Position numbers and translations under genes: made by a program
Part shown: positions 2,042 through 14,590 of the stretch, in pieces
Position numbering within the stretch: the stretch's first letter is position 1
Layout of the letters: each line of letters starts with the position of its first letter
The notes under the pieces: generated by a model
Told to the model about the DNA's origin: nothing
Seen by the model: only the letters and a program-made list of their open reading frames with translations
The model's database searches: none
NCBI GenBank assembly: GCA_029934835.1
Contig: JAOZLL010000007.1
Coordinates: 1-47,405, forward strand
Source: Flavobacteriaceae bacterium
GTDB lineage: Bacteria > Bacteroidota > Bacteroidia > Flavobacteriales > Flavobacteriaceae
Direction: 5' to 3'
DNA: 47,405 nucleotides

Positions 2042-4228
2042 ATGAAAAAATCCAATTGGTTTATTAGAGTTTTTGTTGGTATTATGTTAGTAGCTTTAGG
2101 TGCTACTGATGCAATGGCACAACAAACTCTCGACGATGTAAAAAAGGCACGTGGTTTAAATGACAACGATGTGCTATCTGCTGTTAAAACTTTCATGCCA
2201 CGTGGTGGTCGTGATGAGTATTTTTCAATTGTAGGAACTGGTAACTCTGGTACTATGATTGTATATGGAATTCCATCTATGCGTATTTATAAATATGTAG
2301 GTGTCTTTACACCTGAACCTTGGCAAGGTTATGGTTTTGATGATGAATCATCATTAATGCTTAAAAAATCTTCGCTAGACAACAGAATTAGTACTTATGG
2401 AGATATGCGTTTCCCTGCCTTTTCTGAAAAAGGAGGAAATTATGACGGGCACTTTGCCTTTTTCTCTGATGGTGCGAACTCTCGTATCGCCCTTATGGGA
2501 TTAGATGATTTTGAAACCAAACAGGTTTTATCAAATCCGTTATACATAAGCACCTATCCTGGTGTTGCCGTAACTCAAAATACAGAGTATGTAATCCAAT
2601 CAAGTCAATATCCTGCACCATGGGATAACAAAACTACTTCTGAAATGAAATCTGGAGTTACTTTCTGGAAATTTGTAGAAGGTGAAAATATCCACAAAAG
2701 TAGAATGATTAAAGAAAAATCATTTACTGTAGAAATGCCTGCTTATAATATGGATTTCTTTGATGCTGGTAAAAGCTCAAGTGATGGTCTTATGGTCGGT
2801 CTTGCTGATAAAGATGGTAAAAGCTATATATATGTCTTAGACTATACCAAATTGGCTAAAGCTCCTTCGAAAAAAGTAAACGACTTTAATGTAGTTTCTT
2901 TTGCTGATGCTAAGAAAAATAATGCAGTTGGGTTTATCGAAATTCCTGCTACTGGCAAAATACTTAGAGTATCTCCTAATGGAAAAAGCTTTTTAGTACC
3001 TGCTGAAAATAATGTAATTGTTTTTGACTTTGCAAAAGTAAAATCTGCTTTAGCGAAAGGAGATGTTATTGCATTAGCAGATGTACAAAAATCAAGTATT
3101 GCTATTGGAAAAGATGTAATTGATGTAGCTTTTGACCAACGTAAAAACACGGCCTATGCTTCTGCACACGGTGACAGCAAAATAGTTCGTTTTAACTACG
3201 AATCAGGAAAAACAGGAAATGAAATAAAATTGAGTTTTAAACCAAGTTTCTTAATGGTTCCTCAAGGAAATTCTGCTTCGCCTCACTCTAACTACTTAAC
3301 TGCAGTTAATAAAGAAGCTTTATATGATAATTATCCTAATGTAGGTCCAATTCGTCCAAGTTTTCAACATCTAATCGATATTTCATCTGATGACATGACT
3401 GATGTTTATACCATGTCTTTACCTCAGGCTAACGTTTATGGTTCAGTTGGCGTGTTACGTACAACAATTAAACCCGTAATTCGTTACCCAGTAGGTACCA
3501 ATACTCGTACTGGTGAGATTTCTCGTTATAAAACGGTTGCTGGTCAAGAAAAAATTGAAAGAGACCCTGAAACAAAAAGAGTACATATATTTGGAACTTT
3601 AATTCGTTCACATATTACACCAGAAATCGTAACAGTTAATGAAGGTGATGTGGTTACATTCCATCTTACTAACTTAGAACGTGCAGAGGATGAAACGCAC
3701 GGATTTACAGTTGACACCTATGGTGTTCATGGTAGTTTTGAGCCTGGTAAAACAGCTTCTGTTACCTTTACAGCTGATAGACCTGGTGTATTCCCTTACT
3801 ATTGTACTGAATTCTGTTCAGCTTTACACCTTGAGATGGAAGGAATCTTATTAATTCGTCCTACAGGTTATGTTGATGTAGCACAAGAAGATGTTGTGTT
3901 AACAGAGGAACAATTGGCAGGTTATAAGAAAAACTACGAAGACAAACTAGTTGTTATTGATCAAACTCAAGATGTTATCAATAGTGTAGTAACTTTCTTA
4001 AAAGAAAATAATTTTGGTGACTATCCTTATGTTGCTGCTTTAGTTGACGATGCATTCGACCAATTGAAAAAAGCAGAAACTTCAAAAGCAAACCATGAAA
4101 AGTATGCCAAAGAAGGAAAATATAAAGATGCTTTCTTATGGGCAGAACAATACTGGCAATATCAAGTGAAAACTGCTGATGTTGGTTTACGTGCTAAAAA
4201 ACTCTTAGAGGAAAAAATCAATAAATAA
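2042..4228 (+). CDS. nosZ: NosZ paralogue carrying CuA but lacking all CuZ ligands
   Basis: A 728-residue exported protein with a Sec signal peptide (cleavage after about A26), a NosZ-type propeller, a cupredoxin domain (about 515-615) and a helical tail of about 115 residues ending the protein. The CuA site is complete: H553, C588, E590 (backbone), C592, H596 and M599 in CTEFCSALHLEM. The CuZ site is gone. Aligned with the neighbouring gene, the HH pair is R123-F124, the NHG histidine is Y172, and the SPHG, GPLH, GHL and EPH histidines are K, D, F and Y. Homology to the neighbour is plain (GLNxxDVLSA, PSMR, SQYPAP, LIDIS). It should accept electrons and pass them on, not reduce N2O itself. 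The gap to the next gene is 40 bp. The frame is intact over 728 codons, so decay is unlikely. Confidence 0.88.
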   Translation: MKKSNWFIRVFVGIMLVALGATDAMAQQTLDDVKKARGLNDNDVLSAVKTFMPRGGRDEYFSIVGTGNSGTMIVYGIPSMRIYKYVGVFTPEPWQGYGFDDESSLMLKKSSLDNRISTYGDMRFPAFSEKGGNYDGHFAFFSDGANSRIALMGLDDFETKQVLSNPLYISTYPGVAVTQNTEYVIQSSQYPAPWDNKTTSEMKSGVTFWKFVEGENIHKSRMIKEKSFTVEMPAYNMDFFDAGKSSSDGLMVGLADKDGKSYIYVLDYTKLAKAPSKKVNDFNVVSFADAKKNNAVGFIEIPATGKILRVSPNGKSFLVPAENNVIVFDFAKVKSALAKGDVIALADVQKSSIAIGKDVIDVAFDQRKNTAYASAHGDSKIVRFNYESGKTGNEIKLSFKPSFLMVPQGNSASPHSNYLTAVNKEALYDNYPNVGPIRPSFQHLIDISSDDMTDVYTMSLPQANVYGSVGVLRTTIKPVIRYPVGTNTRTGEISRYKTVAGQEKIERDPETKRVHIFGTLIRSHITPEIVTVNEGDVVTFHLTNLERAEDETHGFTVDTYGVHGSFEPGKTASVTFTADRPGVFPYYCTEFCSALHLEMEGILLIRPTGYVDVAQEDVVLTEEQLAGYKKNYEDKLVVIDQTQDVINSVVTFLKENNFGDYPYVAALVDDAFDQLKKAETSKANHEKYAKEGKYKDAFLWAEQYWQYQVKTADVGLRAKKLLEEKINK

Positions 4229-4268
4229 TAAGGAGTAATATTAATTACAAAACAAAATTTTCAAAACA

Positions 4269-6971
4269 ATGAAAAATATAGTAAATAAAAAATATGGCTC
4301 ACTATTTATGATGGGCTTGTTTATCGTCACTTTAGGCTTACTTATGGTAAGTTGTGGTGATGGTGAAAAAAAAGGCGGTGATGAATACGCCGGTGGAACA
4401 AATATTTCCGGGAAACCTTTCGGAAAAGAATCTTTTGGTGATGTGGTAAAACGTAGAGGTTTAAATGCACAAGATGTATTATCTGCCGCAAAAACCTATA
4501 CGCCAGATAATCTAAAAGATGAGTATGTGGCAGCAAACTCAGGTGGACAAGAAGGTAACTTACCTATGTACACTGTACCTTCTATGCGTATGTTAAAATA
4601 TGTACCATTAAATACACGTCAACCTTATACTGGTTTTGGCTATAGTGAAGAAACTATGGATTTGATAAAGACTGGTTTTATTGAAGGTCAAGAAATTTTA
4701 TGGGCAGATACTCACCATCTTGGTTTTTCTGAAACTGAAGGTGTTTATGATGGAAAATGGGGTGTGATTAATGATAAAGCAAATCCAAGATTATTTGTAT
4801 GGGATTTAAAAGACTGGCAAGGAAAACAAACTGTTAATAGTCCTATTTTTAGGTCTAATCACGGTGGCTGTTTCTTTACTCCAGATTCTAAATACTTTAT
4901 GGAAGCCTCACAATATCCAGCTCCGCTAGATTGGAAATATCACGAATTAAGTGAAGCCAATTTTGAAAAGTACTGGAGAGGTGGATTAACCTATTGGAAA
5001 TTTGATAATGATAAAGGTAGAATTATTGAAAACGAATCTTTTACCTTTGAATTTCCTCCATATACACAAGATTTATCAGATGCTGGTAAATTAGATTCTT
5101 ATGGATGGGGTTTTACCAACTCATTCTGTACAGAAATGTATTATGGTGGTATCGAAAGCGGTCGCCCTCCATTTGAGGCAGGTTGTTCTTCAAGAGATGT
5201 GGATTACTTACATGTAACCAACTGGCTTAAAGCAGAGAAATTATTAAAAAACGGGACAATCAAACCTATGATGGTTCGTGGTCATAAAGTTATTAAGATT
5301 GCAGATGCTGTTAAACATGATTTATTATTCTTAGTTCCTGAACCAAAATCACCTCATGGTGTTGACGTTGACCCAACGGGTAAATATATTGTGGTTGCAG
5401 GTAAATTAGATTCTCATGCTTGGGTTTACAAGTTTGATAAAATTATGAAGGCCATTGACGAGAGAAAATTTGAAGGTAAAGATAAGTATGGTATCAATAT
5501 TATTAAAATTGAAGATGCACTACATGGAAGTGTAGAAGTAGGTTTAGGTCCACTACACAATCAATACGACAGTAAGCCAGGTGTAATCTATACCTCTATT
5601 TATGTTGATTCACGTATTACTAAATGGGATTATATCAATCTTAAAGTATTAGGTTATGTACCTTCTCATTATAATGTTGGTCACTTAGTATCTGCATCTG
5701 GAGATACACAAAAACCTCATGGAAAATACTTGATTTCATTAAACAAATTATCTATTGACCGTTTTAACCCAGTAGGTCCTTTGCATCCACAAAATCACCA
5801 GTTAATTGATATTAGCGGAGATGGAGACCCAGTAGTAATATATGATTTACCCTTACCAATGGGTGAACCACATTATACAACTTTAATTCATGTAGATGAG
5901 TTTGAATCAGAGGAAATTTACCCTGTAGGTACTAATATAATTACAGATAAAAAGTCCAAACATTTCACCGCTTTAGGTGCTGAAGGTGTAAAAGGTAACC
6001 ACGTTTATGGAACGATAAAAGATGGCAAAGTAACGCCAACAGATTTAAATTTCAAACAAGGGGAAACCATTTACATTCACCTTACCAATCATGGTCAAAC
6101 AAAAGGAGATCATTATGTATATGAGATCGCTTCTTATGATAAAATGTATGCGTTTGCTCCTGGTGAAACAGCAACTATCAAGTTTAAAGCTGAAAAAGCA
6201 GGTATGTATCCAATCTTATTTGATGCACAAAAAACACCCTCCAAACGTCAATTAATTGGCTATTTGGCTGTTGAATTTGATCAAATGGCAGATAATGATA
6301 GAGTATTAGCTTATACAGATCGTATCAACTATGATATGAAAATGCAATCCTTTAAACCATCAGCAATTGAGTTAGCAAACTTACTACCAGGTGAATTAGA
6401 ATTTTTAAACTATGGTTGTAGTGCTTGTCATAAATTTGGTAGGGAATTTAATGGCCCTGATTTAGCGATGATTGAATTGCGTAGAAAAGACAAATGGTTA
6501 GAAGAATGGATTTTGGATCCAGATTCTAAAATGAAAGATGATGATATCGAAGCCATGCGACAACATTATAAGTTAGCCATGCCTAACCAAAATGTATCTA
6601 AAGAAGATGCTACTAAGATAATTGCTTATATGAAAGCAAAATCTAAAGAAGTAATGGATGAAAAAGCAAAAGATGCTCCTGCAGAAACTGCAGCAACGGG
6701 TGACTTCGGCAACGGAAAAGCAACTTATGATACTAAATGTATGGCTTGCCATGCAACAGGTGTTACAGGTGCTCCTAAGTTAGATGAAAAAGATCGTTGG
6801 GCAACTATTGGAGCTCAAGGTATGGAGGTACTTCTCAAACACACAATCAATGGATTCCAAGGAGAAATCGGTGTAATGCCTCCAAAAGGTGGATTTACTG
6901 ATTTATCTGATGAAGACATGGAAAATGCTGTTAAATATATGCTAAGTGCCGCAGGTACTTCTGCAAAATAA
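4269..6971 (+). CDS. nosZ: NosZ with CuZ site, degenerate CuA and two C-terminal haem c domains
   Basis: A 900-residue lipoprotein (lipobox cysteine C29) and the likely catalytic chain of N2O reductase (N2O to N2 in the periplasm). All seven CuZ histidines are present: H149, H150 (DTHH), H198 (SNHGG), H363 (SPHG), H430 (GPLH), H472 (VGHL) and H535 (GEPH). The cupredoxin domain (about 575-675) keeps a histidine (H615), but the segment that should hold CxxxCxxxH is PILFDAQKTPSKRQ, with no cysteine, so CuA cannot form. Two class I cytochrome c domains follow: C717-S-A-C-H721 with candidate axial M771, and C824-M-A-C-H828 with M870. Wolinella-type cNosZ has one such domain and its own CuA. Loss of CuA is compensated by the upstream paralogue, so the two are probably one enzyme. 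Confidence 0.9.
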   Translation: MKNIVNKKYGSLFMMGLFIVTLGLLMVSCGDGEKKGGDEYAGGTNISGKPFGKESFGDVVKRRGLNAQDVLSAAKTYTPDNLKDEYVAANSGGQEGNLPMYTVPSMRMLKYVPLNTRQPYTGFGYSEETMDLIKTGFIEGQEILWADTHHLGFSETEGVYDGKWGVINDKANPRLFVWDLKDWQGKQTVNSPIFRSNHGGCFFTPDSKYFMEASQYPAPLDWKYHELSEANFEKYWRGGLTYWKFDNDKGRIIENESFTFEFPPYTQDLSDAGKLDSYGWGFTNSFCTEMYYGGIESGRPPFEAGCSSRDVDYLHVTNWLKAEKLLKNGTIKPMMVRGHKVIKIADAVKHDLLFLVPEPKSPHGVDVDPTGKYIVVAGKLDSHAWVYKFDKIMKAIDERKFEGKDKYGINIIKIEDALHGSVEVGLGPLHNQYDSKPGVIYTSIYVDSRITKWDYINLKVLGYVPSHYNVGHLVSASGDTQKPHGKYLISLNKLSIDRFNPVGPLHPQNHQLIDISGDGDPVVIYDLPLPMGEPHYTTLIHVDEFESEEIYPVGTNIITDKKSKHFTALGAEGVKGNHVYGTIKDGKVTPTDLNFKQGETIYIHLTNHGQTKGDHYVYEIASYDKMYAFAPGETATIKFKAEKAGMYPILFDAQKTPSKRQLIGYLAVEFDQMADNDRVLAYTDRINYDMKMQSFKPSAIELANLLPGELEFLNYGCSACHKFGREFNGPDLAMIELRRKDKWLEEWILDPDSKMKDDDIEAMRQHYKLAMPNQNVSKEDATKIIAYMKAKSKEVMDEKAKDAPAETAATGDFGNGKATYDTKCMACHATGVTGAPKLDEKDRWATIGAQGMEVLLKHTINGFQGEIGVMPPKGGFTDLSDEDMENAVKYMLSAAGTSAK

Positions 6972-7073: not shown

Positions 7074-7904
7074 ATGGAAAATAAATCCAATAAATTTGGA
7101 CTTCTTTACAAACTATTTGGTGTAATAGGAGTTCTGTTAATTATTGCTGTATACTTTATGCCAATTTGGTGGGTAGCTTTGCAAAGTCACCAATATCCTA
7201 AATCAATGTATCCAAAAGGTATTCGTATTGAGTTTAAGTATGATGGTGTATATAATGGTTGTGAAGGTGTTCAAGAAAGAGCAGAAATTACTACTAATGA
7301 GGGTGCAGATTGTCTAATGGAAATGACTGCTATTAACCATTATATAGGGATGTATCCTATTGTACAAGGAACTAACAGTCGTGTCTTTGAAGAACTAAAA
7401 GAAGGACAGATTAAACCTGTTCCAGAATATTATGTATTTGATACAAAAAGAGATGCAAATGGTGAAGATATTATCGATCCTAAAACAGGTAGTCCTGAAC
7501 AAATAAATGTGACACCTCAATATCTAAAAGTATTAAATGGCATTTTAGTGTATTCAAAATATATTTTTTCTTTTTTAATACTCTTGCTACTCTATTTTAT
7601 TGTTACACCTAAAAAACAGAATTCGGTATTTGCTTTTTTACCAGCATTATTACCTTTCTATTTCTTATTCCTATACATGTATTCTATGTATTGGTATGGA
7701 CACCATCTAGATTTACATGGAGGAGGCGCTTTTGCAGGAATAAAGCCATTTATGCCAACTATTTTTGGTCATGGTAAAGTTGCTCAGTTTGAAACAGTAG
7801 CTTATCCATATTATGGTTTCTTGGTAGATTTTATGGTATTTGTGGTACTTATATTTGCCATATTATTTAAAAGAAAATCTATAGCATTGCAAGGTAACAA
7901 ATAA
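7074..7904 (+). CDS. nosB: NosB-like membrane protein of clade II nos clusters
   Basis: A 276-residue inner-membrane protein with an N-terminal anchor (about 13-33), a periplasmic region of some 120 residues, and three further hydrophobic segments (about 157-178, 184-208 and 247-268). I name it NosB mainly from position: in the Wolinella-type cluster nosB lies between nosZ and nosD, as here. The periplasmic region has two Cys and a Met/His-rich stretch, CLMEMTAINHYIGM, and a later loop has HHLDLHGG, both plausible copper sites. No enzymatic motif was recognised. It lies behind the strong hairpin at 6981 and 138 bp ahead of nosD. The role in clade II NosZ maturation or electron supply is not established from sequence. 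Confidence 0.6.
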   Translation: MENKSNKFGLLYKLFGVIGVLLIIAVYFMPIWWVALQSHQYPKSMYPKGIRIEFKYDGVYNGCEGVQERAEITTNEGADCLMEMTAINHYIGMYPIVQGTNSRVFEELKEGQIKPVPEYYVFDTKRDANGEDIIDPKTGSPEQINVTPQYLKVLNGILVYSKYIFSFLILLLLYFIVTPKKQNSVFAFLPALLPFYFLFLYMYSMYWYGHHLDLHGGGAFAGIKPFMPTIFGHGKVAQFETVAYPYYGFLVDFMVFVVLIFAILFKRKSIALQGNK

Positions 7905-8041: not shown

Positions 8042-9343
8042 ATGAGAAACTATTTCCTCATATTGATACTACTATTACAATGGAATGTTTTTTCACAAAA
8101 CAAAGCCACAGAAACTTTTGGTTTACTCACCGAAATCACCCCTTTTACTTCGGATGAAAATCAAGTATTCCTCAATACCTTACTTAGAAATCTTAAGCCT
8201 GGCGACACCCTAAAATTAAAACCTGGGTTTTATACTGGACCTGCTACAATTACAATTCCAAATGTAGTAATTGATGGAGGTGGAAAAGCAACTATTTCTG
8301 GTATGGCTAACGAATCGGCTATTTACGTGAAAGCAGCTAATGTAACCATCAAAAACCTACACATTACCAATTCTGGAGATTCTCCCGACCGACTAGATGC
8401 TGGTGTAAAAGTCTTAGAAGCAAACAATACACTAGTTCAAAATTGTCTTATTGAAGAATGTCTTTTTGGAGTGGACATCTTTAAATCAGATGGTGTTGTT
8501 GTTGAACACTGCGACATTACCTCTATTTCAACCAAACCTTTGGCCTTGAAAGGTGATGCCATCAGACTTTGGTATTCTACCAATAATAAGATCCAATTTA
8601 ACTACTGGCACGGCGTACGTGATATGGTAGTGTGGTATTCCTCAGGGAACCATTTTGAGGGAAATAAAGGTGTCGGCAATCGATATAGTATTCACTTTAT
8701 GTATGCCCACAATAACCGAATACATAAAAATGAATTTTATAATAACTCCGTAGGTGTATTTTTAATGTATAGTGAACAGACTATTCTTTCAGAAAATTTG
8801 ATTCAAGGATCCGTAGGGTCAACAGGTATGTGCTTGGGACTCAAAGAAACATCATCTAACCAAATATTAAACAATCGATTTCTGTATTCTGCTTATGGTA
8901 TCCACTTTGATGTATCGCCATTTGTAACAGAAAAAATAAATACAGTAGTAGGTAACGAAATTGCTTTTTGTAACGTAGGCATGCTCTTTCATTCTGACCT
9001 TGAAGGAAACTTAATTAAAAAAAACTACTTACATGATAATTTAACGCAAGTTTATGCACGTGGTAAAACTGCAAATGGCAACAAATTTGAAGGGAATTAT
9101 TGGAGCGATTATCAAGGTTATGATAAAGATGAAGATAATGTTGGTGATGTACCTTATAGCTTATATAGCTACAGCGAACACCTATGGGCTTTTAATAGAG
9201 ATGTAAAGTTCTTTTATGGAGCACCAATCTTAGAGGTCCTAGATTTCTTAGAAAGACTAGCCCCTTTTTCAAAACCAAAATTCGTATTAAGAGACAAAAA
9301 ACCAATTTACAAGTGGGAACAAAATAAAGAACGAGAATATTAA
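8042..9343 (+). CDS. nosD: NosD, periplasmic copper-site maturation protein
   Basis: A 433-residue exported protein. The Sec signal peptide ends near residue 19 (VFSQ). The body is a right-handed parallel beta-helix of the CASH type, with repeated turns such as VTIKNLHITNSGD, NTLVQNCLIEEC and NRIHKNEFYNNSVG. NosD works with the NosFY ABC transporter in building the CuZ cluster of N2O reductase. The length is normal for NosD, and the C-terminal part (EGNYWSDYQGYDKDEDNVGD) is typical of the family. It stands 138 bp after nosB and 102 bp before nosG; its upstream gap holds the long inverted repeat. Confidence 0.93.
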   Translation: MRNYFLILILLLQWNVFSQNKATETFGLLTEITPFTSDENQVFLNTLLRNLKPGDTLKLKPGFYTGPATITIPNVVIDGGGKATISGMANESAIYVKAANVTIKNLHITNSGDSPDRLDAGVKVLEANNTLVQNCLIEECLFGVDIFKSDGVVVEHCDITSISTKPLALKGDAIRLWYSTNNKIQFNYWHGVRDMVVWYSSGNHFEGNKGVGNRYSIHFMYAHNNRIHKNEFYNNSVGVFLMYSEQTILSENLIQGSVGSTGMCLGLKETSSNQILNNRFLYSAYGIHFDVSPFVTEKINTVVGNEIAFCNVGMLFHSDLEGNLIKKNYLHDNLTQVYARGKTANGNKFEGNYWSDYQGYDKDEDNVGDVPYSLYSYSEHLWAFNRDVKFFYGAPILEVLDFLERLAPFSKPKFVLRDKKPIYKWEQNKEREY

Positions 9344-9445: not shown

Positions 9446-10279
9446 ATGGGACAATCAAAATCAGACATTAACAGAAGGCAATTTCTAAGAAATGGAGCTG
9501 TAGCTGTAGTTGCTTTAAGTGCAGTTGGTGTAGGTGCTAACTATTTAAAAAAACTAAATGTTGAAAATGCGGAAACATTATTAAGACCACCAGGTGCTAT
9601 AAATGAAGAAGAGTTTATTTATGCCTGTATAAAATGTGGTCTTTGTGTACAAATTTGTCCAATCGAAGCAATAAAATTAGCAGGTATTTCAGATGGTTTA
9701 TCTTATGGCACACCCTATATAGATCCACGTGCACAAGCCTGCGATTTTTCTTGTGATGCCATGCAGTGTATAGAAACTTGCCCAACTTCTGCATTGAATT
9801 TTATTCCTTTTAAAACGGCAGGAGAAGAAGCTTATGTAGCTTATAATAAAGCTAATCCTACACCTGGTCCCGATTATAATCCTATTGCTATACAGTCTAA
9901 AGCAATGAAAGCCAATACCAAAATGGGAAAAGCAATTATTAATAGTAGTACTTGTTTGGCCGTTCAAGGAAAAGGATTTAAAGGAGCTCCTAGGGAAGAA
10001 GGTTTTGAAGGCATCTATCGTTCTCCAAACCCTAAACTTAAAGAACGTAAGGCAAGTCCTGTAAATGATCATTTATTCAATAGTGAAATTTGTAATTTAT
10101 GTGTAACCGAATGTCCGATTGGAGATACTGCAATTATAATGGATGAAAGCATTGGAAATGATGGAGTAAAATATTGGAAACCAAAAATTTTAGATGGATG
10201 TACTGGATGTGGAGTTTGTGTAATGGTTTGCCCATCTACACCTGACACCATAATTATTGAAAAATTAGAAACCGCCTAA
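9446..10279 (+). CDS. nosG: NosG, NapG-like periplasmic ferredoxin
   Basis: A 277-residue iron-sulfur protein exported by the Tat system: the twin-arginine motif NRRQFLRNG is near residue 10, followed by a hydrophobic stretch. Four cysteine clusters for [4Fe-4S] centres are visible: CIKCGLCVQICP, CDFSCDAMQCIETCP, CNLCVTECP and CTGCGVCVMVCP. It resembles NapG and, with NosH, is thought to form a quinol-linked electron route in nos clusters that lack NosR. The gap to nosH is 11 bp, so the two are certainly co-transcribed. The upstream spacer carries an AACTTTAAACTTTAAAC repeat. Confidence 0.92.
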   Translation: MGQSKSDINRRQFLRNGAVAVVALSAVGVGANYLKKLNVENAETLLRPPGAINEEEFIYACIKCGLCVQICPIEAIKLAGISDGLSYGTPYIDPRAQACDFSCDAMQCIETCPTSALNFIPFKTAGEEAYVAYNKANPTPGPDYNPIAIQSKAMKANTKMGKAIINSSTCLAVQGKGFKGAPREEGFEGIYRSPNPKLKERKASPVNDHLFNSEICNLCVTECPIGDTAIIMDESIGNDGVKYWKPKILDGCTGCGVCVMVCPSTPDTIIIEKLETA

Positions 10280-10290
10280 ATTCTTGACTA

Positions 10291-11223
10291 ATGATAAATA
10301 TAAAAAAATTAGAACCCTTACCAGCTAAACGTCGAGAAGAAATGCCTAATTCAAAATTAGGAATTACCTTTAAAGAATGGAAAGCTAACAAGCCAAACAA
10401 AAATAAATGGCGTAACAAACGTTGGGCTGTACTACTTTTCTTTAATTTCTTATTTTGGGCATCTTTTGCCTTTGACATAGGTGTTTTAGAAGGTTCACTC
10501 AGTGGTTCACGTTTCTTTGGTATCTATTTGATGGATCCCTTTAACGCCTTACAAGAAATGTTTATTGCTAGCAGAACTGGATATTTTGCCATGTTAACAA
10601 CCAACTTCTTTATCGGATTTTTTATAATACTAATGTTTTACTTCCTTATGGGTGGTCGTACTTTTTGTTCATGGCTTTGCCCCTACCATTTCTTAGCTGA
10701 AAATGCAGAAAAACTACACAACTATTTAGTTAAAAAGAAAAAAATAAAAGAACATTCCTATAATATTGCTATAAAATATATCTTTTGGATAGGTTTCCTT
10801 CTTTTAGCATTTTTTACTAAAACACTAGTTTTTGAAACCATAAATCCTGTTGGTATTATATCAAGAGCTATAATTTATGGCCCTGGATTATTACTTTTAT
10901 GGGTTGTTGCTTTGCTGTTATTTGAAATCGTATACTCTAAACGATTTTGGTGTCGCTATGTATGCCCAATCGGAGTAACATATAGCGTATTAAAAAAAGT
11001 ATCACCCGTAGGTGTTGAGTTTGATTTAAGTAAATGTGGACATTGTAGAGATTGCCAAGATGTATGTTTGGTACCTCACGAATTGTGGTTTGTAAAACGT
11101 GGCGAAGCAACAAAAGAGTTTCATACAACAGGCGCAGATTGTACCAATTGTGGACTTTGCGTAGATGTATGTTATGGTGATGCCTTAACACTTAAAATAA
11201 AAGGATTTGATAAGATCCTTTAG
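10291..11223 (+). CDS. nosH: NosH, NapH-like membrane iron-sulfur protein
   Basis: A 310-residue membrane protein with about four transmembrane helices. The two cytoplasm-facing motifs typical of NapH/NosR are CSWLCPYHF and CRYVCPIGV. The C-terminal ferredoxin-like part has CGHCRDCQDVC and CTNCGLCVDVC. It should oxidise menaquinol and hand electrons to NosG across the membrane. In the Wolinella-type cluster two small cytochrome genes (nosC1, nosC2) separate nosG from nosH. Here the two genes are 11 bp apart and both cytochromes are absent. Confidence 0.92.
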   Translation: MINIKKLEPLPAKRREEMPNSKLGITFKEWKANKPNKNKWRNKRWAVLLFFNFLFWASFAFDIGVLEGSLSGSRFFGIYLMDPFNALQEMFIASRTGYFAMLTTNFFIGFFIILMFYFLMGGRTFCSWLCPYHFLAENAEKLHNYLVKKKKIKEHSYNIAIKYIFWIGFLLLAFFTKTLVFETINPVGIISRAIIYGPGLLLLWVVALLLFEIVYSKRFWCRYVCPIGVTYSVLKKVSPVGVEFDLSKCGHCRDCQDVCLVPHELWFVKRGEATKEFHTTGADCTNCGLCVDVCYGDALTLKIKGFDKIL

Positions 11224-11365: not shown

Positions 11366-12019
11366 ATGGAAAATTCTGAGACATTAATCTCGGTTCAAAA
11401 ATTAACTAAATCTTTTAAAAAGACTTCAGTTATTGAAAATCTTAGTCATGATTTTAAAGCAGGTGAACGTATTGCCTTGGTAGGTCAAAATGGCGCTGGG
11501 AAAACTACTTTAATCCGTAGCATCTTAGGCTTATATAAATATGAGGGAAGTATAGATGTACTTGGTATGAATCCAAGAACTGAACGTGAAAAAATACTAC
11601 ATCATATCGGCTTTGTGCCACAAATACCACCTCCAATTAAAATGACCGTTGCAGAAATGCTTGAATTTTTTGGTACTCTAACCAATACTGACAAACAACA
11701 GTTTATTGATATCAGTGAAAAACTAGGTTTAGATGTTCAAGCAAATCTAGATAAACCTTTTATGAAACTTTCGGGTGGAATGAAACAAAAATTACTAGTT
11801 TCATTTGCCTTAGGTAGAAATCCTAAAATCTTATTGATGGATGAGCCAGCAGCCAATCTTGATCCTACTGCAAGAAAAATCTTATTTGAATATTTACATA
11901 ATTTTGATAAAGATGCCCTGATGATAATCAGTAGTCACCGAATCGATGAGGTTGAGGGCTTGGTAAATCGCTTAATTGAAATGGATTTAGGAAAAATAGT
12001 AGTAAACAAAGAAGTATAA
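11366..12019 (+). CDS. nosF: NosF, ABC transporter ATPase
   Basis: A 217-residue cytoplasmic ATPase with Walker A GQNGAGKTT (about residue 40), signature LSGGMKQ, Walker B ILLMDEP and the H-loop histidine in SSHR. With NosY it forms the ABC transporter that, together with NosD, serves CuZ assembly. It is somewhat shorter than many NosF proteins but contains every functional motif. A 142-bp spacer separates it from nosH and includes one copy of the dispersed CGCAAAG-type repeat (about 11309-11342). Confidence 0.93.
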   Translation: MENSETLISVQKLTKSFKKTSVIENLSHDFKAGERIALVGQNGAGKTTLIRSILGLYKYEGSIDVLGMNPRTEREKILHHIGFVPQIPPPIKMTVAEMLEFFGTLTNTDKQQFIDISEKLGLDVQANLDKPFMKLSGGMKQKLLVSFALGRNPKILLMDEPAANLDPTARKILFEYLHNFDKDALMIISSHRIDEVEGLVNRLIEMDLGKIVVNKEV

Positions 12020-12090: not shown

Positions 12091-12669
12091 ATGAAAAAAC
12101 TAATATTACTACTCGGATTTTTAATCCTCTTAAGTTCTTGTAAACAAGAGGTAACTTATGAAGCTCGTGATATAAACTTTGATCGAGATGTATGTTATGT
12201 TTGCCTTATGGGGTTAACAGATCAACGATATAACGCACAAGCCATTAATGAATATGGCGAAGTACATTGGTATGATGACATAGGATGTTTAGCTGAAGAA
12301 ATGAGAGATACGGCAATATGGAATACATGGAAAGGGAACAAAGTGAAATTTTGGATTGGTGATGTCAGCAAAGGAAATGACCCATCAAACTGGATTGATG
12401 CAGAAACTGCCTATTATGATTATGGAAAACATACGCCCATGGGATATGGATATTCGGCTTATGCTACAAAACCAGATGTAGATTCGGTATTCACTTTCGA
12501 AGAAGTTTTAAAACGCATCAATGAAGGAAAAACAATGCGTGAAAACTTTATTCAAGAAAAAATGTTGATGATGAAAGACAATCCTAAGAAAATGAAAAAA
12601 TTAAAGGAAAAACTAAAAAAAGAACAAAAAAAAAGTGATTCAACCTCTCATGTAGGGCATAATCACTAA
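12091..12669 (+). CDS. nosL: NosL copper-binding lipoprotein
   Basis: A 192-residue lipoprotein (lipobox LLSSC, C17). NosL delivers Cu(I) to apo-NosZ. The metal motif is C35-x2-C38-x-M40 (CYVCLM), followed by the conserved WYDDIGC segment. The C-terminal third is unusual: a very Lys-rich helix (about 155-182) ending in SHVGHNH, a possible extra metal-binding tail. Gene order here is F-L-Y, while many clusters have F-Y-L. It lies 71 bp after nosF and 32 bp before nosY. Confidence 0.9.
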   Translation: MKKLILLLGFLILLSSCKQEVTYEARDINFDRDVCYVCLMGLTDQRYNAQAINEYGEVHWYDDIGCLAEEMRDTAIWNTWKGNKVKFWIGDVSKGNDPSNWIDAETAYYDYGKHTPMGYGYSAYATKPDVDSVFTFEEVLKRINEGKTMRENFIQEKMLMMKDNPKKMKKLKEKLKKEQKKSDSTSHVGHNH

Positions 12670-12701: not shown

Positions 12702-13538
12702 ATGAAGAGTTTTGATAGTTTAAAACAAATCGTTCATTCAGATATTCGACAAAACTTGCGGTCAGCTTGGTTTTGGGCATATAGTATCTTATTTGGTGGT
12801 TTTGTAGCCATAATGTTTACCTCAGGAATTACTGAATCACAAATTATCGGATTTGTAGGTTTAAGTCGCCTAATGGTAACTTTTATGCAAATTAGTATGG
12901 CAATATTACCAATCTATGTCCTTATTTCAACTGTCCGGTCGGTAGTTGGTGATCGTGAAAATTCTGTAATGGAATATATCTTATCCTTACCCATATCATT
13001 CTCCAGTTATTTTTGGGGAAAACTTATAGGGAGATTTTTCATCATATACACACCCGTTTTTATTGCTTTATTAGGTTCCGTTATTTGGGCTCTACTAACC
13101 AAAATTGATGTTCCTTGGGATTTATTTTTCCTATACAGTGCCTTATTGGCATCTTTAGTATTTTTCTTTTTAGGATTGAGTATGTATATTTCAGCGAGAG
13201 CTACATCACAAGATATTGCGGTAAGTACCGCTTTCATTATCTGGTTATTTCTAGTAGCTTTTATAGATTTAATACTCATCGGAATTATGTTGCGCATGCG
13301 TGGAAATCCAAGCTTAATTATTGGCTTAGGGATGCTAAATCCATTGCAGGTTTTTAGAACAGGAAGTTTAATTCTGTTTGACCCACAATTAACGGTAATG
13401 GGTACTGCTTCATATTATATATTAGACACTGTAAATAGAAGTGTTTTCATTGCCTTTTCAATTCTTTACCCTATTGGTTTAGGTTTTTTGTTTGCCTATT
13501 TTGGAAATAGATATTTTAATAGAAATGATGTGGTTTAG
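12702..13538 (+). CDS. nosY: NosY, ABC transporter permease
   Basis: A 278-residue inner-membrane protein with six predicted hydrophobic segments, of the ABC-2 permease type (STVRSVVGDREN and YILSLPISFSSYFWGK are typical). It partners with the NosF ATPase. Length and position match NosY. It is the last recognisable nos gene: the next gene follows after a 131-bp spacer that contains TTAAAGTTATAAAGTTG-type repeat sequence and no clear terminator. Confidence 0.92.
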   Translation: MKSFDSLKQIVHSDIRQNLRSAWFWAYSILFGGFVAIMFTSGITESQIIGFVGLSRLMVTFMQISMAILPIYVLISTVRSVVGDRENSVMEYILSLPISFSSYFWGKLIGRFFIIYTPVFIALLGSVIWALLTKIDVPWDLFFLYSALLASLVFFFLGLSMYISARATSQDIAVSTAFIIWLFLVAFIDLILIGIMLRMRGNPSLIIGLGMLNPLQVFRTGSLILFDPQLTVMGTASYYILDTVNRSVFIAFSILYPIGLGFLFAYFGNRYFNRNDVV

Positions 13539-13669: not shown

Positions 13670-14590
13670 ATGAAACATTTAATTTCTTTAATTGGATTAT
13701 TGGTGATAAGTAGTTTATACTATTCATGTGGATTCACCACTGCTGCTCCTGTTAGTAAGTTGTTTCCAAACGATCCTGATACTACAAACCTTCCTGAATT
13801 GGCCGTGTTTTTAGAAGCTGATCAGTTGGAAAAAATTATTAATGAGGAAACCACACTTTCTAATGGAAAAAAAAGATACAAAGGCATTATTTCCATTCCT
13901 CAAGATGGTGATGATTTTAGAAATGATTCTTTAGATGAGGTGTATTGGCCAAGAGTGAGTGTTATCGAAGGTGATTTTAGGGGTGCTTCTATACGTTCAG
14001 GTAGATGTCAGGATGGTAACTATCGAAAATCTGATTTTAGAGTAGCTGATGTTCGTTGGTCTATATTTAATAATGCAATTTTGGATAGCATCAATTTTAG
14101 TCAAAGTAGGTTGTTTCATGTCAAAGTTAACTATGCTAAATTATCAAACTCAAACTTTAAAGGAGCTAATATGTTTGGAATGGAAGGTCATTTTACTAAG
14201 ATGCGAAATTGTGATTTCTCTGGTGCTTTGATGAAAGATTCTGAATTTTTAGAAAGTGATTTAACTGGTTCAATCGCTGTAAAAGCAAAACTTTTCAGAG
14301 CGGTTTTGTTAAATTCCAAATTAGACTCTTGTGATTTTTCCTATGCTGATTTTACGGGTGCTGGACTAGAAGAATCCTCGTTTGTTAACTCAAGACTTTG
14401 GCATGCTAATTTTCAAGGAGGGCATTTGCAAGGCACAAACTTTCAAGGAGCTGATTTAAAAGGCTGTAACTTCTTTGGTACTGAATTTGAAGGAACTAAT
14501 TTCAATGGAGCAATAAACATTCCAGATGAAATTAAATCTTTTATCAATGAAGAAGGTTTAGCTACAGGTATTTGGCAAGACCCAAAATAA
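13670..14590 (+). CDS. Pentapeptide-repeat lipoprotein
   Basis: A 306-residue lipoprotein (lipobox YYSC, C20). After a non-repetitive region (about 21-90), residues from about 94 to 280 are pentapeptide repeats of the A(D/N)FxG type (EGDFRGASI, NFKGANMFG, SDLTGSIAV, GTNFQGADLKGCNF), predicted to form a right-handed quadrilateral beta-helix outside the cytoplasm. I do not know its function. Lying directly behind nosY in the same direction, it could belong to the nos operon or start a new unit. It is followed after 38 bp by the YceI-like gene. Pentapeptide proteins are otherwise known for DNA mimicry, which a lipoprotein is unlikely to do. Confidence 0.8.
   Translation: MKHLISLIGLLVISSLYYSCGFTTAAPVSKLFPNDPDTTNLPELAVFLEADQLEKIINEETTLSNGKKRYKGIISIPQDGDDFRNDSLDEVYWPRVSVIEGDFRGASIRSGRCQDGNYRKSDFRVADVRWSIFNNAILDSINFSQSRLFHVKVNYAKLSNSNFKGANMFGMEGHFTKMRNCDFSGALMKDSEFLESDLTGSIAVKAKLFRAVLLNSKLDSCDFSYADFTGAGLEESSFVNSRLWHANFQGGHLQGTNFQGADLKGCNFFGTEFEGTNFNGAINIPDEIKSFINEEGLATGIWQDPK

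Follow-up and report, generated by a model that had tools for sequence, protein, structure and literature searches.

How could a nitrous oxide (N2O) reductase work if its two copper sites, CuA and CuZ, were carried by two different proteins? The question is raised by the window (the whole stretch of Flavobacteriaceae DNA analysed here, 47,405 nt), in which two adjacent genes of the NosZ family, here called A and B, have each retained the ligands of one site only. According to PMC11573801, the N2OR/NosZ of M. nauticus is a head-to-tail dimer in which the CuA of one protomer faces the CuZ of the other. Our comparisons are consistent with a model, to which we give a probability of roughly 0.85, in which the locus encodes a two-gene clade II-type N2O reductase that would work as an A·B heterodimer and would derive from tandem duplication of a complete NosZ.

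The two NosZ chains and the nos operon

ORF B lies downstream of ORF A, and 40 nt separate them. The features of the two genes are:

2042..4228, + strand: NosZ-A (728 aa), with a signal peptide-like start (judged by eye), a propeller without CuZ ligands, a cupredoxin with the complete CuA set and a helical tail
3569..3865, + strand: NosZ-A cupredoxin domain, aa 510-608, with CuA ligands H553 (3698-3700), C588 (3803-3805), C592, H596 and M599 (to 3838)
3875..4225, + strand: NosZ-A C-terminal helical tail, also present in eight complete NosZ from Pseudomonadota/Myxococcota, no match being found in B
4269..6971, + strand: NosZ-B (900 aa), with a lipoprotein-type signal, a propeller with seven CuZ His, a cupredoxin without CuA and two c-type haem domains
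4269..4355, + strand: NosZ-B lipoprotein-type signal, ending at Cys29 (pattern match only)
4491..5948, + strand: NosZ-B propeller, aa 75-560, with CuZ His from 149/150 (4713-4718) to 535 (5871-5873) and with the Ca-clamp carboxylates and the E488 equivalent kept
5991..6269, + strand: NosZ-B cupredoxin remnant, aa 575-667, without CuA ligands
6417..6752, + strand: NosZ-B haem motifs CSACH (6417-6431) and CMACH (6738-6752), the CxxCH at residues 717-721 and 824-828

In a MAFFT alignment with complete NosZ (164 proteins), R-F-Y-K-D-F-Y replaces the seven CuZ His in the window's A, which has H553, C588, E590, C592, H596 and M599 at the CuA positions; B has His at all seven CuZ positions (149, 150, 198, 363, 430, 472 and 535) and Y-F-A-K-K-L at those of CuA. 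The alignment confirms the initial annotation, which had claimed that the first gene keeps the CuA ligands and loses every CuZ His and that the second keeps the seven CuZ His and has no Cys at CuA, and it agrees with the residue numbers given there for both chains. The two haem motifs and the lipoprotein-type signal on B, the helical tail on A and the nos operon downstream are features beyond that annotation.

The Pfam domains of A are the NosZ propeller repeat and a COX2/cupredoxin domain; B combines the propeller repeat and a cupredoxin with cytochrome c domains. Against TIGR04246, the model of Sec-dependent clade II NosZ, A scored 409.3 bits and B 618.3 bits, both below the NCBIfam cut-off of 625, and no gene in the window's genome exceeded that cut-off; B passes it in many other loci that carry the pair. 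The window's two chains covered positions 1-578 and 1-574 of the 578 in this profile, in keeping with a clade II propeller and cupredoxin on each, and the presence of both ligand sets on one chain, which also characterizes clade II NosZ, is found in neither gene and only in A and B taken together. With the model of clade III lactonase-type NosZ (NF052460, cut-off 700), the chains scored 70.5 and 100.1 bits, which points to distant homology only.

An AlphaFold-type prediction of A alone (51 rows) reached a pLDDT of 84 and a pTM of 0.77. Among the 50 matches listed, the predicted A aligned with solved NosZ chains over both domains at TM-scores of 0.75-0.79 by target length and 0.59-0.64 by query length, with an rmsd of 4.3-5.5, and A is thus predicted to have the two-domain NosZ fold. 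A fused chain, read contiguously from the cupredoxin of A through the stop codon into B, was of low confidence (pLDDT 66.8, pTM 0.62); L003 served as the modelled locus and 20 others as alignment rows, which together make up all of the 22 in-frame loci except L071; loci in which B was cut or masked, eight in number, had been set aside earlier.

Downstream of the pair, the genes follow in the order A, B, NosB-like, nosD, nosG, nosH, nosF, nosL, nosY:

7074..7904, + strand: NosB-like membrane protein, presumptively named by position; no Pfam or NCBIfam match
8042..9343, + strand: nosD (TIGR04247, 360 bits against a cut-off of 300)
9446..10279, + strand: nosG (NapG-like ferredoxin), named by position, the NapG models scoring below their cut-offs
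10291..11223, + strand: nosH (NapH-like ferredoxin; TIGR02163, 234 bits against 213)
11366..12019, + strand: nosF (ABC ATPase), named by sequence reading and synteny
12091..12669, + strand: nosL-like lipoprotein, 26-35% identical to the gene in the same place in seven of eight complete-NosZ loci (the eighth contig ends earlier); no family match
12702..13538, + strand: nosY-like permease, 46-54% identical to the gene in the same place in seven of the eight complete-NosZ loci; no NCBIfam match

The genes nosD, G, H, F, L and Y, the last three named by sequence and synteny, give the window the nos operon expected of clade II NosZ. In loci with more than 2.5 kb of sequence after B, the NosB-like gene is next in 47/47 and nosD is present in 46/47. 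Two loci have an odd order of best matches (B before A in one, nosF before A in the other), which we take for cross-matches. Directly after the window's operon lies a gene for a pentapeptide-repeat-like lipoprotein of 306 aa (13670-14590), named by reading.

B sequences of at least 700 aa carry one haem motif (52/63) or two (11/63), and 53 of the 63 have a lipobox-like Cys within their first 45 residues. Both forms occur in one MAG, where loci L004 (1-10626) and L007 (1-6497) encode one B with one haem motif (801 aa) and one with two (903 aa). Some 100 residues form a C-terminal tail in each of the eight complete relatives, and the corresponding tail of A, which the predicted model shows as helical, matches all eight of them (phmmer E 3e-24 to 9e-31); phmmer found no tail match in the B sequences.

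In the two complete-NosZ loci read for this, L074 (6286-7482) and L081 (2546-3777), genes for a monohaem and a dihaem cytochrome stand between nosZ and the NosB-like gene. The window has no cytochrome gene between B and the NosB-like gene, and no CxxCH was found in its other ORFs of at least 150 aa. The simplest reading of these gene contents is that the haem of B took over the role of the separate mono- and dihaem cytochromes. A derivation of the B haem from the neighbouring nosC genes was considered and is not supported: the best pairwise BLAST match had an E-value of 1e-4 (the L074 dihaem protein), and the monohaem protein gave no convincing match.

Distribution of the pair

We scanned genome contigs with A as the query and retained, out of 450 candidate stretches, the 80 best, among which were 72 A-type genes (73 with the window) from 70 other MAGs and eight complete-NosZ loci. 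All 72 carrier records are titled as MAGs or as uncultured; they include Flavobacteriaceae (with Lutibacter), Saprospiraceae, Bacteroidales, Lentimicrobiaceae, Melioribacteraceae, Chlorobiota-labelled genomes and one labelled Cloacimonetes, among others. A second A-B pair, on a contig of its own, is present in at least two genomes (L004/L007 and L068/L069).

The division of ligands seen in the window is maintained throughout this set. The CuA set H-C-E-C-H-M is intact in 72/72 A sequences that reach it (one is cut), and at the seven CuZ places, all readable in 70 of them, 60/73 A sequences have no His and 13/73 have one. B has the seven CuZ His in 65/69 sequences, and the remaining four, cut or N-masked, have His wherever a ligand place is readable; Cys at either CuA Cys position is absent from all 64 readable B sequences. 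B directly follows A in 69/73 loci, at a distance that runs from -50 to 100 nt with a median of 29. The A gene sits at or near a contig end in the remaining four, of which L016 and L067 still reach into fragments of B. The search for the gene pair proposed with the initial annotation shows the split in 70 other MAGs as well, which makes chance or sequencing error a very unlikely origin.

Genome sets drawn by taxonomy gave a sparser picture. Among relatives of the window's genome, the A gene was found in 5/59 other genomes at 83-94% identity: in four of the six in the same genus (one as a fragment) and in one in the same order. An even draw across the phylum (395 genomes, 370 of them at least 90% complete) yielded an A-type CuA domain only in the window's own genome, the best other identity being 58%. 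There was no A-type match beyond the centre genome in 197 genomes of the class of L015 or in two of the phylum of L038, and in 235 genomes of the phylum of L079 none of 44 matches exceeded 47% identity, the level of complete NosZ.

The initial annotation had named a third, complete NosZ elsewhere in the genome, with the pair unexpressed, as a finding that would undermine its proposal. We looked for a third NosZ in the window's genome, an assembly of 2.47 Mb and 88% completeness, and found none, A and B being the sole matches. By score, the pair is likewise the only NosZ found in 65 of the 70 other carrier genomes (matches of at most 697 bits), and a complete NosZ of more than 900 bits stands beside it in the other five (the genomes of L006, L008, L009, L064 and L066). 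The eight outgroup genomes gave one match each, above 840 bits, and none of 14 known control genomes exceeded the NosZ score cut-off. Matches below 45 bits, in many genomes and in 6/14 controls, are confined, where they could be placed, to the CuA end of the model and are probably oxidase subunits. Because all carriers are MAGs, the lack of a third NosZ is provisional.

Constraint, ancestry and the subunit interface

Conservation of the two chains is arranged as a mirror image. Mean pairwise identity within A is 65% in the propeller and 90% in the cupredoxin, and within B 76% and 67% (means that skip low-overlap pairs and so cover, for A, 2556 of the 2628 possible pairs and, for B, 2080 of 2211). 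Compared with the eight complete NosZ of Pseudomonadota and Myxococcota, A is 40% identical in the propeller and 72% in the cupredoxin, and B 58% and 33%. In maximum-likelihood domain trees of 75 rows, A forms one clade and B another (SH-aLRT 99-100), with stems of 1.26 (A) and 0.47 (B) in the propeller tree and of 0.23 (A) and 1.23 (B) in the cupredoxin tree; these are quick searches with few cupredoxin columns, for which the program warns of long branches. The trees used 24 of 36 representative A-B pairs and left out rows L103, L108 and L113, where the longest ORF taken was not NosZ. Another row set held 45 A rows and six of the eight complete outgroup rows.

Both A and B branch within the complete NosZ from Pseudomonadota and Myxococcota, apart from the complete Bacteroidota NosZ sampled. 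In the free propeller tree they also fall apart from one another, A grouping with L074/L075 and B with L076. Constraining A and B to one clade raised the likelihood by 33 (propeller) and 21 (cupredoxin) and was not rejected (p-AU 0.85 and 0.81), so a single duplication origin is allowed by these sequences and not proved. The distances of A and B in the propeller tree are correlated (r 0.68 over 24 pairs, with 0/2000 permutations as high), a result that joint inheritance alone would also give. Values of dN/dS were 0.018-0.185 in 26 of 28 domain comparisons from seven pairs, the other two having saturated dS, and were below 0.08 for the propeller and cupredoxin of A where computed; neither A nor B looks like a decaying gene.

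The residues that join two NosZ protomers offer a closer view of the proposed partnership. In the M. nauticus enzyme, as described in PMC11573801, a Ca-bound propeller loop clamps the cupredoxin of the partner, and F617, E488 and K450 link CuA and CuZ. We mapped these residues onto our alignment, using the numbering of that source. The Ca ligand D274 is D in 66/66 readable B sequences and in 0/72 of A. E488, which bonds to F617 of the partner, is E in 66/66 B sequences, N in 73/73 of A and E in all 22 complete NosZ, and F617 itself is F in 72/72 A sequences and in 1/64 of B. With D274, E488 and F617 partitioned in this way, most of what a working interface needs is left only in the combination of B propeller and A cupredoxin. 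E260 is E in 66/66 B sequences and deleted in 73/73 of A; because it is also a gap in 14/14 complete flavobacterial NosZ, its loss says little, and D274 and E488 carry the argument. K450, near CuZ, is kept in every readable sequence of A (73/73) and of B, so not every feature of the CuZ side is partitioned.

The sites that have lost their copper ligands are themselves conserved. In the former CuZ pocket of A, R132 is present in 68/70 sequences and D378, R463, N488 and Y490 in 73/73 (M. nauticus numbering), which suggests a pocket plugged by a fixed set of residues, perhaps with a salt bridge or aromatic plug in place of copper. In the CuA-less cupredoxin of B (5991-6269 in the window), Y replaces a CuA His in 64/65 sequences, R stands at M623 in 61/64 readable ones, and the second CuA Cys position is His in 32/64; this domain possibly has a new structural or single-metal role.

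Duplication followed by division of labour, as the initial annotation had proposed, is strongly supported by the gene order, by the one clade formed by each chain, by the mirror-image constraint and by the complementary cross-subunit residues.

A proposed heterodimeric N2O reductase and its alternatives

Our data point to the following model. An ancestral complete NosZ would have been duplicated in tandem. Copy A would have retained the CuA domain and the helical tail while its CuZ pocket was filled by other residues; copy B would have retained the CuZ propeller and acquired a lipid anchor together with one or two c-type haem domains, while losing both CuA and the tail. In a head-to-tail A·B dimer, the working interface would set the CuA of A against the CuZ of B, and the second interface, between the empty cupredoxin of B and the plugged propeller of A, would be dead, leaving one active site per dimer versus two in the homodimer. 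Electrons from the quinol side would probably enter by way of the NosG/NosH module and reach the haem of B, then CuA of A and CuZ of B. We strongly infer from the sequences that A and B depend on each other obligatorily. The fuller reading also seems likely to us: a single-active-site obligate heterodimer that arose once by tandem duplication and spread through Bacteroidota, Ignavibacteriota and their neighbours, with A supplying only CuA, B only CuZ and the B haem feeding in electrons.

Clade II NosZ is, as we take it from the name of the TIGR04246 model, exported by Sec, and Sec-exported clade II NosZ folds outside the cytoplasm. Two separately exported chains could therefore meet in the periplasm, where B would be held at the membrane. 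Clade I NosZ is Tat-exported and already folded as a dimer at export, according to PMC11573801. In Wolinella, NosG, C1, C2, H and NosB are required, according to PMC11102522 and its reference list.

An arrangement in which B acts as a self-sufficient homodimer, its own c-type haem replacing CuA, and A serves as a separate CuA electron shuttle or scaffold has some appeal, since the B sequences carry one (52) or two (11 of 63) haem motifs and a fused haem is already known in cNosZ (PMC11102522). We nevertheless consider it unlikely. D274 and E488, residues for contact with the cupredoxin of a partner, are kept in the propeller of B, yet the cupredoxin of B itself lacks the CuA loop and, in 63/64 sequences, F617; the matching partner residues are kept in the cupredoxin of A, at 90% mean identity, and A retains a whole propeller under selection. 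B was also not seen without A, a weak argument because the scan started from A.

The propeller of A is far diverged from complete NosZ (stem 1.26), as might befit a degenerate duplicate, or an assembly or regulatory subunit, whose retention has nothing to do with electron transfer; intact CuA ligands in 72/72 sequences, dN/dS below 0.08 in both domains where computed and a place directly upstream of B in 69/73 loci make this the least credible of the alternatives. Reduction of a substrate other than N2O would fit the failure of either window chain to reach the NCBIfam cut-off of 625 bits (409 and 618), and is nonetheless highly improbable: B has lost none of the seven CuZ His and retains K450 and E488 of the second sphere, a nosD-G-H-F-L-Y maturation operon lies downstream, and in many other carrier loci B passes the cut-off.

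If the heterodimer is as proposed, its reaction, fold and operon are already known, and the new part is the splitting of the copper sites over two partner proteins. The initial annotation knew of no published description of such a division, and we found none in our searches of the open-access literature, bioRxiv preprints lying outside them. The nearest complete NosZ in the set studied is that of the Sulfuricella/Hydrogenophilales/Myxococcota type (L074-L079, L081 and L082). Its loci resemble the split loci in the nos gene order behind nosZ and in a helical tail like that of A; unlike the pair, this NosZ has both copper sites in one gene, and, unlike the window, the two loci read (L074 and L081) have separate c-type cytochrome genes before the NosB-like gene. 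The canonical clade II NosZ of Flavobacteriales relatives (L089-L102) share family and fold with A and B but have both sites in 14/14 sequences, and their mean identity to A or B is 26-44% by domain. The cNosZ of Wolinella and Campylobacter also carries CuA and CuZ on one chain, whereas in the pair the haem is on the CuA-less chain B and CuA is on A, which sets the pair outside cNosZ. Its likeness to the pair lies in a C-terminal c-type haem on a NosZ and in nosB/D/G/H-type genes (PMC11102522). Heterodimeric photosynthetic reaction centres, in unrelated proteins, follow the same theme of homodimer to heterodimer. There, a symmetric homodimer became a heterodimer with one working branch.

The split form bears on how N2O reducers are counted. 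One survey dropped NosZ sequences that lacked the right CuZ and CuA residues (PMC9188126), and any filter for both ligand sets on one protein would discard both A and B. In PMC11409646, 15 MAGs are reported to have two nosZ genes, which never lie within 45 genes of each other. Because the pair is the only NosZ found in most carriers, these organisms could be miscounted as non-reducers or as bearers of two enzymes. The split form is also a natural separation of CuA from CuZ: loading, mutation and measurement could be carried out on one site at a time, and the path of electrons and protons between the sites would be open to separate measurement as well. If our reading is true, it appears that in many uncultured bacteria the greenhouse gas N2O is destroyed by two mutually dependent proteins, and not by identical copies of one.
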